Part shown: positions 1,870-7,832 of the stretch, one piece after another
Layout: each line of letters opens with the position of its first letter
Numbering within the stretch: the first letter of the stretch is position 1
From: a virus
Direction: 5' to 3' (one strand)
Length of the DNA: 35,266 nucleotides
IMG/VR virus record: IMGVR_UViG_3300047179_000012
Span: 1-35,266 of that record
The notes under the pieces: generated by a model
Database searches by the model: none
The model's input: the letters and a program-made list of their open reading frames with translations, nothing else
Told to the model about the DNA's origin: nothing
Made by a program: the position numbers and the translations under genes

Positions 1870-1902
1870 GCCGGAGATGTTCGCCGAAAAGAAAGGAAAA
1901 AT

Positions 1903-2172
1903 ATGTTAACCGAAAAAGACTTCAGCGACTTCAACCAAGCCGACAAGATGACGCCCGAGATCGAGGCGGCGGTCCGCGGCGTATTCAATTACCAGCCGTG
2001 GTCGATGGAGATGGAAATGAAGGCAAACCTCGTTCGCGAAGCACTCGCGAACGCGGTCCTGGTGATCGTCGAACAGGTCCCGCCGGGCCCGGACCGAACA
2101 ACGGCGATCCGCAAGATCCGCGAGGCGCGCATGGACTGCAATTCCGCGATCAACCATGGCGGCAAGTATTGA
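1903..2172 (+). CDS. Acb2/Tad1 hairpin-domain protein, candidate anti-CBASS/anti-Thoeris nucleotide sponge
   Basis: An 89-residue protein. Its C-terminal 60 residues match what I remember of the Acb2/Tad1 helical-hairpin family: an aromatic start (VFNYQPW), a first helix ending in VREALANAVLVIVEQV, a short turn with PPGPDRT, and a second helix with AIRKIREARMDCNSAI. The spacing of VREA, the P-x-x-x-D/S-R turn and the M-x-x-N-x-A/S-I signature is the recognisable pattern. Characterised Acb2 and Tad1 proteins oligomerise and bind immune signalling nucleotides (cyclic oligonucleotides, gcADPR), blocking CBASS and Thoeris. The N-terminal 25 residues are an extra, acidic extension. It has its own ribosome site (AAAGGAAAA) and overlaps the next gene by one base. 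Family assignment is by eye; the anti-defence role is inferred. Confidence 0.7.
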   Translation: MLTEKDFSDFNQADKMTPEIEAAVRGVFNYQPWSMEMEMKANLVREALANAVLVIVEQVPPGPDRTTAIRKIREARMDCNSAINHGGKY

Positions 2173-2396
2173 TGCCGATTCCGTTTCCGTCAAAATCCGT
2201 GAAGCACACCAAAGACGAGACTTACTTCGATGACGATGGCGTGGAGCGAATAGCGCCCGCTTACTCGCTCGCGCTCGAAAGCAACGGCTACTCGATCCTG
2301 ATCAAGCGCGGCGTGTGCGCACGTTGCCACGCGAAAGTCCCCGTCGCGAAGGCGATCGAGCACAGGTGCAAGCCGACCGAGGGGCTCCTGGCATGA
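2172..2396 (+). CDS. Small zinc-ribbon-like protein
   Basis: A 74-residue protein starting in the TGATG overlap with the Acb2/Tad1-like gene. The C-terminal part holds CARCHAKVPVAKAIEHRC, a Cys-x-x-Cys plus His/Cys set that could bind one zinc ion. The first half is acidic and aromatic (TKDETYFDDDGVERI). The direct coupling to the candidate anti-defence gene makes a shared role possible but not demonstrated. Single zinc ribbons of this size are common in phage early operons and usually have no assigned function. Confidence 0.65.
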   Translation: MPIPFPSKSVKHTKDETYFDDDGVERIAPAYSLALESNGYSILIKRGVCARCHAKVPVAKAIEHRCKPTEGLLA

Positions 2397-3979: not shown

Positions 3980-4197
3980 AGTTCGAGGACCTGGACGAGC
4001 GCATCTGCGTACTTGTCGTCTACGCGAGCGGCGAACGCATCTGGGAAGATGCCCGCGCCTACCGCCGGAACCCGACGCCCGGCTCCTACGTGCTGCAGGA
4101 GAAAAAGCGGAGCGGTTATCGCCCGCCGCCTATCGATCTCGAAGAGCCCGCGCCAGAAAGCGGCATCAGCCTGCGCTGGCCGGTGAGGCAGCCGTGA
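3976..4197 (+). CDS. Hypothetical 73-aa protein
   Basis: It begins in the ATGA overlap with the Zn-finger/HTH gene and ends overlapping the GTG of the next gene, so all three are coupled. The sequence has a strand-like first half (RICVLVVYASGERIWED) and a Pro/Glu-rich second half (PPPIDLEEPAPESG). No known motif is visible. Tight coupling suggests a role with the regulator upstream, but that is inference only. Confidence 0.6.
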   Translation: MKFEDLDERICVLVVYASGERIWEDARAYRRNPTPGSYVLQEKKRSGYRPPPIDLEEPAPESGISLRWPVRQP

Positions 4198-4523
4198 ATC
4201 GCCGCGCTTTTCTGTCGTTATTCGGCGTCACCGCGGCCGCGATCGCGGCGGATCCGGAGCTGGCGCTCTGGAGGCCTGGCGCGAAGCTGATCTCGATTCC
4301 GAGCGTAGTCGCGCCCAGGTTCGGATGCGGCAATCCTATAACGCTCGGCGCTCACGTGGCGGCTATTCTCAGCGAAAAAGCTCCCCATTGGCAACACCTG
4401 GATCGAGCCTGGGAAAATCTGATGCGGCAACACAGGTTTTTGGAGCCGCCCTACGCGTCTACAATTGTGGGCACGCCCCCGGCCGTGGGGTCGAAATCCC
4501 CGGATGCCGCGGAACGCTCCTAG
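4194..4523 (+). CDS. Protein with twin-arginine (Tat) signal, unknown function
   Basis: It starts at a GTG inside a GTGA overlap. The N-terminus NRRAFLSLFGVTAAAIAA is a twin-arginine signal: RR, then FLSLFG, then a hydrophobic Ala-rich core. It is followed by DPELALWRPGAKLISIP. From memory, this combination of a Tat-like leader and a D-P-E-x-x-L-W-x-P-G-x-K-x-I-x-I-P motif recurs in many short phage proteins of unknown function. The remaining 70 residues have no catalytic motif. If the signal works, the folded protein would be exported through the host Tat pathway, which is unusual for a phage product. An alternative is that the 'signal' is a membrane anchor. Confidence 0.65.
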   Translation: MNRRAFLSLFGVTAAAIAADPELALWRPGAKLISIPSVVAPRFGCGNPITLGAHVAAILSEKAPHWQHLDRAWENLMRQHRFLEPPYASTIVGTPPAVGSKSPDAAERS

Positions 4524-4635: not shown

Positions 4636-5250
4636 CTACTTTTGGGTAGGCGTGGAAAAGGGTTTTCCGAACGCTTTCACCGCGTCCGCCACGGTCGCAA
4701 GCGGAACGCCCATCTGAGCGGCGATTTTCCGGAAGCTCATTCCGCTCTCACGAAGCCGAAAAGCTTCATCTCTTCGAAATACCCGCTTGCGCCGGCCGCC
4801 GACTCTTCCCTGCCGGCGCGCTTCCGCCAGACCGGCGTTGACGCGGTCGACGATCATTCCACGCTCGAGCTCGGCGAATGCCGCCATGATGTGCATGAGG
4901 AACTTGCCCATCGGATTCTGCTTATCGGTGTCGATGCCCTGGTTCGGAGCAATGAAGCGAACCCCGGCCTGGTCGAGCGCGAGGATGTTGCCGGTGAACT
5001 GCTTCATTGATCGGGCGAAGCGGTCGATCTTCCAGACGAGGACGACATCGAACTTCCGGAGCTGCGCATCCTTCATCAGTTGCTCGAGGACCGGCCGGTG
5101 CTTCACGCTCGATTGCTTCTCGGCGTACTCGATCGATGCCCAACCCATCCGCTCAACGTAGCCGCGCAACTCTGTTAGCTGCATGTCGTACTTTTGATCC
5201 TGGGTCGAAACCCGGACGTAGATCGCGGCGGTGAGCGGGCGCGGAGTCAT
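4636..5250 (-). CDS. Small serine recombinase (resolvase/invertase family)
   Basis: A 204-residue protein. The catalytic domain starts AIYVRVSTQDQ, with the nucleophile Ser at about residue 16. It continues with VLVWKIDRFARSM, the conserved D-R-x-x-R of serine recombinases, and AFAELERGMIVDRVNAGLAEAR, the E helix. The C-terminal 45 residues form a helix-turn-helix (RLRESGMSFRKIAAQMGVPLAT). The size and layout match resolvases and invertases such as Hin or gamma-delta, not the 450-plus-residue large serine integrases. It could resolve dimers, flip a segment, or catalyse integration in a minimal system. Its start overlaps the upstream 60-aa gene (ATGA), so both come from the divergent promoter region at 5430-5464. 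Confidence 0.92.
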   Translation of the reverse strand: MTPRPLTAAIYVRVSTQDQKYDMQLTELRGYVERMGWASIEYAEKQSSVKHRPVLEQLMKDAQLRKFDVVLVWKIDRFARSMKQFTGNILALDQAGVRFIAPNQGIDTDKQNPMGKFLMHIMAAFAELERGMIVDRVNAGLAEARRQGRVGGRRKRVFRRDEAFRLRESGMSFRKIAAQMGVPLATVADAVKAFGKPFSTPTQK

Positions 5251-6021: not shown

Positions 6022-6975
6022 ATGAAATGCACAGTGAAGTGGAACATCAGCGAAAAGAAGCAACGCGAAATGATGAAGCGCACCAACGCGCCCGTCAGCA
6101 GGGACCGCGCCGAAGAAATCGAGATCCAACCCGAAGATCTCGACCTGGTCGGCATTGAGCTTAGCGCCGACGGAGCGGCATTACTGAATGGGGGTCCGAA
6201 TTCCGAGTGCGAAACCGCACTCGAAATCCTGCAGCGCGACCGCGAGAAACACAACGCGAAGATCGAGAACGAAAAAGCCAGCGCCGCCCTGCTCGAAGAA
6301 ATCCAAAGCTACGATGCCGCCGCGGCAAAGTGGGCGCGGCAGAACTGGATCAGCGATCGAGACATCGCATTGAAGGCCGTGTTTCCGAGCTATCAATACG
6401 TGTGGGGAATGAAAACGCCGCTGCTGGAGGCCGAAAAACAATTCCAGCGGCGCCTGATCTCCGACTGGGAGGAGGCGCACCGGGAACGCGAGCGACTGAT
6501 GCGGAAAGCCGATCTCGACGCGGCTGCTGAATGGATCGGCGGCATCAAGCGAAAAATGTGGGACACGGGAAACTTGGGCGTCTCGCGGCTGCTAGAGGCG
6601 CTGCGCGAAAAGGCCTATCCCCAACTCCGGCCGGTTGCTTACTCGCTCTGCAACGATAACGGCTGCTCATGCGGCGCGAAAAAAAATCCTGAGCTGTCCG
6701 AGGTTGAGTTTCAGCGGCTGGAGACGCTGAAGCAACAGCTCCCGAACGGCTCCACGATCACCGTGTATCGCGTGTTCGAGTGCCTCCGCGACTACGATGG
6801 CAATTGCGGCGAAGACGACTCGCAAGAGCTGGGCATCACCGCGGAGCTGAAACTCCCTTGGCGCTCGCTCTCGCTGGATGTCGAAGTGTTGGTCGCGCCG
6901 ATCAGCTCGTACCACGGGCCATTCGCTTCGGCGAAGGACGTCGAGACGTACCTGGCCACCCGAAAAGGAAAATAA
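6022..6975 (+). CDS. Hypothetical 317-aa charged helical protein
   Basis: The start is supported by GGAG at 6007-6010. The protein is rich in Glu, Lys and Arg, with long helical stretches (residues about 70-180). A short Cys-containing segment (LCNDNGCSCGAKK) sits near residue 215 and a more strand-like C-terminal 80 residues follow. Two further Cys (FECLRDYDGNCGED) follow the first group, so a small metal site is possible. No catalytic motif is recognised. Its last codons (ETYLATRK) are identical to the end of the next gene because both contain copies of a 24-bp direct repeat. This suggests the downstream gene was inserted or duplicated at this point. Confidence 0.75.
   Translation: MKCTVKWNISEKKQREMMKRTNAPVSRDRAEEIEIQPEDLDLVGIELSADGAALLNGGPNSECETALEILQRDREKHNAKIENEKASAALLEEIQSYDAAAAKWARQNWISDRDIALKAVFPSYQYVWGMKTPLLEAEKQFQRRLISDWEEAHRERERLMRKADLDAAAEWIGGIKRKMWDTGNLGVSRLLEALREKAYPQLRPVAYSLCNDNGCSCGAKKNPELSEVEFQRLETLKQQLPNGSTITVYRVFECLRDYDGNCGEDDSQELGITAELKLPWRSLSLDVEVLVAPISSYHGPFASAKDVETYLATRKGK
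6943..6966 (+). repeat. 24-bp direct repeat, copy 1
   Basis: Identical over 24 bases to 7806-7829. It lies in the last codons of the gene 6022-6975. The two copies bracket the Ala-repeat gene, so recombination between them would delete it while leaving a normal gene end. Confidence 0.85.
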
Positions 6976-6977
6976 AA

Positions 6978-7832
6978 ATGAAAAATCAGCAAATCGAACC
7001 ACTCGATATTGACTTAATCACGCTCGCGAGAGGCATCCACCCTCCTGGCGAGAACGAATTCTGCGCCATGGAGCTGGTGGCGTATATCGCTGGCTCGCCA
7101 CACTCAGACCATCCGTCGTGCGCATCGGTCGTCATCGGCGCGTTCGTTCGGAAGCTAAATGACGGACTCGCGGACGAAGAAAGACAGCAGCTCAAACCCT
7201 ACTTGCGCCGCATCATCGGCACGGGCCAAGACGGAGCGGATCAGCGCCGTGCATGGATGGCGATCGACTGGATCGTTCGGGAGCATACGGCGATATGGCT
7301 CGAACACACCGCAATGGAAGGATTAGCGGTCGAATTGAGGGCCTGCTCCGAGATCATCGACATCGCCACGCTCCAGGCCGCGCAACAAATACTTAATCGA
7401 GCTACGTCCGCCGCCGAGTCCGCCGCCCGGTCCGCCGCCGAGTTCGCCGCCTTGTCCGCCGCCCGGTCCGCCGCCTTGTCCGCCGCCCGGTCCGCCACCG
7501 AGTTCGCCGCCTTGTTCGCCGCCGAGTCCGCCGCCCGGTCCGCCGCCTTGTCCGCCGCCCGGTCCGCCGCCGAGTTCGCCGCCCGGTCCGCCGCCCGGTC
7601 CGCCGCCGCCTGGTCCGCCGCCGCCCGGTCCGCCGCCGCCTGGTCCGCCGCCGAGTCCGCCGCCGAGTCCGCCGCCCGGTCCGACGCCTTGTCCGCCGCC
7701 TTGTCCGCCGCCCGGTCCAGCTTGCTTCCGAAAAGCGCTGACATCCAGCTATCGGCGTTCCGCTTGCTGGATCGAATGATCGACGCGAAAGCTCCTAAGG
7801 AGCTAGAGACGTACCTGGCCACCCGAAAATGA
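6978..7832 (+). CDS. Ala-rich tetrapeptide-repeat protein of a widespread uncharacterised family
   Basis: The ATG at 6978 follows AAGGAA and lies three bases after the previous stop. Residues 1-130 form a globular domain with NEFCAMELVAYIAG, SDHPSCASVVIGAFVRKLND and a later RRAWMAIDWIVRE. From memory this signature occurs in many phage and actinobacterial proteins of unknown function. Residues about 144-247 are low-complexity repeats of the type S-A-A-R / S-A-A-E / F-A-A-L, encoded by a 12-bp tandem repeat. A short conserved end (FRLLDRMIDA) follows, then ETYLATRK, which copies the end of the previous gene. The repeats should form a long Ala-rich helix with charges every four residues, or a helical solenoid. 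No function is known to me. Confidence 0.8.
   Translation: MKNQQIEPLDIDLITLARGIHPPGENEFCAMELVAYIAGSPHSDHPSCASVVIGAFVRKLNDGLADEERQQLKPYLRRIIGTGQDGADQRRAWMAIDWIVREHTAIWLEHTAMEGLAVELRACSEIIDIATLQAAQQILNRATSAAESAARSAAEFAALSAARSAALSAARSATEFAALFAAESAARSAALSAARSAAEFAARSAARSAAAWSAAARSAAAWSAAESAAESAARSDALSAALSAARSSLLPKSADIQLSAFRLLDRMIDAKAPKELETYLATRK
7407..7717 (+). repeat. 12-bp tandem repeat encoding Ala-rich tetrapeptides
   Basis: About 25 imperfect units of TCCGCCGCC plus one variable codon (CGG, GAG or TTG), in frame with the gene 6978-7832. A few 15-bp units with an extra GCC codon lie around 7610-7660. It is expected to vary in copy number by slippage. Confidence 0.9.
7806..7829 (+). repeat. 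24-bp direct repeat, copy 2
   Basis: Identical to 6943-6966. It ends at the stop of the Ala-repeat gene and includes the first base of the next ATG. Confidence 0.85.

Follow-up and report, generated by a model that had tools for sequence, protein, structure and literature searches.

A conserved subfamily of the Acb2/Tad1-hairpin family in a soil phage, a probable nucleotide sponge with a rebuilt pocket

The gene at positions 1903–2172 of virus record IMGVR_UViG_3300047179_000012 is a soil-phage gene, and its product does belong to the Acb2/Tad1-hairpin family (PF24729). The window analyzed is this virus record of 35,266 bases. Acb2/Tad1-hairpin relatives in other phages soak up bacterial alarm molecules. 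Within this family, the protein falls into a separate subgroup that is strongly conserved and has not been described so far. Its ligand and anti-defense function are what we infer: it is probably an oligomeric nucleotide sponge with a rebuilt pocket, acting against signaling like that of the cyclic-oligonucleotide-based anti-phage signaling system (CBASS). As it lacks several features of Acb2 proper and the beta domain of Tad1, the subgroup is classed as a new subfamily within the Acb2/Tad1-hairpin superfamily and not as Acb2.

Family membership

PF24729 was the sole Pfam match of the product, scoring 14.1 bits (E 0.055) where the curated cut-off is 27, and nothing in the window genome matched this family at E 0.001. 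Such a match below the threshold is by itself insufficient for family assignment. Single-sequence searches with the window protein recovered no relatives in viral contigs and phages (tblastn) or in the PDB (phmmer). In the PHROG search, phrog_1454 matched the product with E 3.8e-6 and also matched T4 Vs.4/Acb2 (E 7e-4), and phrog_717, which represents Acb2 proper, gave no match to the product. The same phrog_1454 had three matches in 39 virus records related by TerL, and such records contain better members than the window protein.

A bridge protein of one terminase-related virus record (L165) reached 42.9 bits with PF24729, and homologs were gathered from phages and viral contigs starting at this protein. 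All 12 members of the resulting bridging alignment A1 match PF24729 (best 2.4e-25); this alignment is too diverse for a locus scan, and EBPR podovirus 1 and Chlorobiaceae phage CV-1-33 had no match with it. An 11-member profile built without the window protein gave 38 bits for 1903–2172, with 17 bits for the best of 10,000 shuffles. A 55-member viral profile, also without the window protein, gave 45 bits (E 2.4e-13 among 503 open reading frames (ORFs) of the window), with 15 bits for the best of 10,000 shuffles. With both profiles, no ORF of the window genome other than 1903–2172 was significant. Judged by these intermediate profiles, the product is homologous to accepted PF24729 members. In addition, PF24729 matches 31 of the 32 subfamily members (best 1.6e-6), and the Tyr and Met anchors are separated by 47 residues without gaps in the window protein, as in 49 of 50 anchored relatives. 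The Pfam search proposed in the preliminary description, where the gene was named an Acb2/Tad1-family candidate, stayed below the cut-off with the protein alone; the family assignment made there is supported by the profiles built from its relatives.

The 11- and 55-member profiles found 0 matches in 14,779 ORFs of other phage stretches, p26-type Acb2 loci included. Because p26-type Acb2 is missed by profiles of this group, here named the YHxP group (phrog_1454), the group and Acb2 proper are far apart at the level of sequence profiles, and what links them is therefore Pfam, PHROGs, the profile search of the PDB, and the fold. Another, longer PF24729-like protein with the C-terminal sequence TKLEEALMWQEKRTKDREARNVEG is coded in viruses terminase-related to the window (L166:1450-1770 and L167:1444-1848).

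Predicted structure

AlphaFold2 models computed from two alignments show a helical hairpin of residues 35–58 and 63–84, with a mean predicted local distance difference test (pLDDT) of 89.1 and 92.3 and a predicted template modeling score of 0.66 and 0.73 for the first and second model, respectively. In the second model, the two long anti-parallel helices have pLDDT of about 98. Both models are all-helical and no beta strand was found in either of them. The helical hairpin read from the sequence in the preliminary description was accordingly modeled with confidence.

When the first model was compared with the PDB, T4 Vs.4 with cyclic GMP-AMP (cGAMP) was at rank 1 (probability 0.87, E 2.2). In BFVD, the matches at ranks 1–5 and most of those at ranks 6–17 are annotated as Acb2/Tad1 hairpin, and the first ten have a probability of 1.00. 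The profile of the wider group compared with the PDB placed Acb2 homolog 43 (9ptq, six chains) first with E 5e-4, followed by T4 Vs.4 (E 0.016) and several Tad1 chains (E 0.14–0.21).

Subfamily and its conservation

A search with an alignment containing the window protein identified about 36 viral contigs coding for relatives with 43–63% identity. In a tree of 120 sequences, these relatives and the window protein form one group with support of 100/98 on a long branch, and one more fragment (L309) falls inside it; the tree was built on only 86 columns, and its inner forks are rough. Among 34 distinct members, the Tyr–Met anchor distance and the tail of 12 residues do not vary. Residues R45, D64, R65, A68, R70, R73, E74, D78, S81, A82, and G87 are invariant in these members, and W33, R76, N80, I83, H85, and Y89 nearly so. 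The hallmarks of the subfamily are the N-terminal extension, the YHPW motif, the REARMD core, and the HGGKY tail. The median ratio of nonsynonymous to synonymous substitution rates is 0.23 over 341 pairs, and the subfamily frame is under purifying selection.

The N-terminal extension was called unusual in the preliminary description. It is normal within the subfamily, as almost all close relatives share it, although most members of the wider family have one that is shorter by about 15 residues. In one relative, two family copies lie side by side (L250:2995-4153), the second being 34% identical to the window protein.

Pocket and oligomer interface

In T4 Vs.4, cGAMP is contacted by Y8, H11, K23, R79, and F82, and hexamerization relies on L29, A66, A73, and A77 (PMC10097602). 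In the anchored comparison, the contacts correspond to Y30, W33, R45, S81, and N84 of the window protein, and the interface positions to A51, A68, A75, and C79, so that the character is kept at two of the five contact residues and at three of the four interface residues. Tyr8 of T4 is retained as Y30 and its Lys23 as the likewise basic R45, with an identical spacing of 15 residues, as in T4 and p26 Acb2. The F82 position is Thr or Asn across the subfamily. Because the subfamily shows little or no variation at W33, R76, and S81, the replacements in the pocket do not look random and suggest a different but selected binding surface.

Genomic context and host

Gene neighbors vary between the contigs of the relatives. 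Several relatives have structural genes next to the gene on one or both sides, and the gene then often runs on the opposite strand. This suggests an accessory (moron-like) gene position. The early operon of the preliminary description stays a proposal. Coupling to a zinc-ribbon gene had also been described. The overlap of one base (TGATG) between the stop codon of 1903–2172 and the start of the downstream ORF is real, but the zinc-finger matches of that ORF are weak (E 0.02). A conserved zinc-ribbon partnership was rejected, as no such downstream partner is conserved among the loci of relatives and the coupling is local to the window genome.

Besides viral contigs, the clade includes two metagenome-assembled genomes (MAGs), which hold the nearest cellular relatives, one of Bryobacteraceae (59%) and one of Solibacteraceae (56%), both of the order Bryobacterales (Acidobacteriota). 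Further genes common to the window and the Solibacteraceae MAG locus (L330) are a resolvase, an exonuclease, and one more small gene, so that a Bryobacterales host is likely. The SMODS (CD-NTase) cut-off was passed by 17 of 120 Bryobacterales genomes, about 13 of them with E <1e-8. These counts are compatible with CBASS-type signaling in the host group, although they do not prove it, and they lend modest support to the earlier proposal that the host group uses nucleotide signaling.

Some other genes of the window were recorded. A serine recombinase/DNA invertase at 4636–5250 on the minus strand (phrog_125, E 2e-48) is 50% identical to one in the L330 locus. The small ORF at 4194–4523 on the plus strand has a twin-arginine-like start, MNRRAFLSLFG..AIAADP..LWRPGAKLISIP; its relatives adjoin the subfamily gene in two further loci (L274 and L276) and in the L330 locus. 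A long Ala/Ser-rich repeat (AARSAAEFAALSAARSAA...) at 6780–7832 on the plus strand reads as repeats on both strands.

Gene organization

The ORF is real, as judged from its good ribosome-binding site (AAAGGA), scores above shuffles, and purifying selection, and the three peptides quoted in the preliminary description are present in its translation. An HNH endonuclease gene (phrog_1571, E 7e-21) lies two genes upstream, at 1208–1648 on the plus strand.

Table 1. Positions of the gene, its parts, and adjoining elements in the window
Feature	Position	Strand	Basis or remark
89-aa (amino acid) Acb2/Tad1-hairpin family protein	1903..2172, incl. stop	+	Profiles, models, structure matches
AAAGGA, Shine-Dalgarno-like	1892..1897	+	Sequence; 5 nt upstream of ATG
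N-terminal extension, residues 1–27, short helix 18–27	1903..1983	+	Subfamily-conserved, DFxRAxxLTPEV pattern
F28-N-Y30-Q-P-W33 motif	1984..2001	+	Y30 = cGAMP-stacking Tyr8, W33 = His11 of T4 Acb2
Hairpin helix 1, residues 35–58	2005..2076	+	Includes R45 = T4 Lys23 position
Hairpin helix 2, residues 63–84, DRTxAIRKIREARMDCNSAI	2089..2154	+	A68/A75/C79 = T4 Acb2 hexamer-interface A66/A73/A77
C-terminal tail NHGGKY	2152..2169	+	Fixed length: 12 residues past M77 in 34/34 distinct subfamily members
Downstream 74-aa ORF, CxxC...HxC	2172..2396	+	Begins within stop codon of 1903–2172 (TGATG)

Proposed function and alternative explanations

In the proposed mechanism, protomers would pack against each other with the face of helix 2 that carries small residues and so build an oligomer like that of Acb2, which is probably hexameric. 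Its pockets would be formed by Y30 and R45 together with the subfamily-specific W33, R76, S81, N84 (or Thr), and HGGKY tail, and would trap a nucleotide second messenger of the host defense (CBASS or similar), so that the host suicide effector stays off. The purifying selection, the variable accessory-like position, and the SMODS cyclases in the probable host order would speak for such a sponge. Since other strictly conserved residues stand at several of the T4 cGAMP contact positions, 3'3'-cGAMP is probably not the ligand that the pocket prefers. That the subfamily is a separately specialized sponge, whose conserved rebuilt pocket would take a signal not favored by known Acb2 and Tad proteins and matched to the cyclases of Bryobacterales, is put forward only tentatively.

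Several results weigh against a sponge. The T4 contacts His11, Arg79, and Phe82 are replaced by W33, S81, and N84, and the interface residue L29 is A51. R76 is at the position of T4 S74, where S74N impaired T4 Acb2, and R70 is at the position of T4 T68, where T68M weakens it. The hairpin is 20 residues shorter than that of T4 Acb2. Direct profile-profile comparison (hhalign) of the subfamily with Acb2 proper was not significant, and that of the wider family reached only 8% probability. PDB fold matches of both models are at E >1, and as T4 Vs.4, first with the first model, is only fifth with the second, the PDB fold evidence is weak. As the known Acb2 pocket is only partly conserved, nucleotide binding and anti-defense activity are put forward as no more than probable.

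The same fold and oligomer could serve a ligand outside defense, either a housekeeping nucleotide or some other partner from the phage or the host, with the hairpin as a mere oligomerization scaffold. Much of the Acb2 pocket being replaced by other strictly conserved residues would fit this, as would the weak direct link to Acb2 proper in the profile-profile comparisons; moreover, the YHxP group is common in many phages, and no tested member of it was found in the accessible literature. It is nevertheless rather unlikely, as the pair of Tyr and the basic residue at +15 and most small interface residues are retained, the gene has the changing neighbors of an accessory gene, as expected for anti-defense cargo, and the solved 76-aa Acb2 homolog 9ptq has an equally short hairpin. 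A Tad1-type sponge for glycocyclic ADP-ribose is very unlikely: PF24729 covers the Tad1 hairpin and Tad1 chains were weakly matched in the PDB profile search, but identity with Tad1 was rejected, as the window protein is all-helical and has no strands. A small helical phage protein resembling Acb2 by chance, to which the direct PF24729 match under the gathering score and the PDB E-values would point, is hardly credible in view of the gapless motif register, the BFVD matches, and profile scores far above shuffles, that of the 55-member profile, if accepted, refuting it.

If the sponge reading is right, it concerns a sharply conserved branch of nucleotide sponges, found in phages of a phylum that has been little studied, and it names specific residues for mutation. 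Binding of a new signal would suggest that Acidobacteriota use an immune messenger not yet described, and binding of known signals would show how far the Acb2 pocket can be rebuilt.

Comparison with known systems

Tad1 is defined by an N-terminal beta-sheet domain preceding the hairpin (PMC12043709). The window protein shares with it the two-helix C-terminal domain of PF24729 but is without the N-terminal beta domain. Acb2 homolog 43 (9ptq; 76 aa, six chains) has the same 47-residue register and a Lys at +15 (hand count on the alignment); it differs in being of the GREKS...TKLEEA type with Thr at the Tyr position, and matches at about 23 bits only.

Acb2 proper (T4 Vs.4 and the Pseudomonas/VP882-type p26; PHROG 717) resembles the window protein in its helical hairpin and short N-terminal helix, in the spacing of 15 between the Tyr and a basic residue, and in hexamer-interface residues that are mostly small. 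The window protein differs in having no GYRxLSxEEI motif, Arg79, or Phe82 and a hairpin 20 residues shorter; it has Trp, Arg, and HGGKY tail positions absent from Acb2, and its subfamily has no significant direct profile match to Acb2 proper.

The YHxP group includes Tunturi_1 gp101, Myrna gp211, Lactococcus phage 1706 orf70, and proteins of Paenibacillus phages. Common to it and the window protein are the hairpin length, F-x-Y-H, R at +15, and the D-[QKR]-[ST]...AIRK[LI]RE core. The subfamily differs by W for P at Y+3, R for V before Met, and D for T after Met, by S and T in place of two Ala, and by its fixed HGGKY tail and longer N-terminus.
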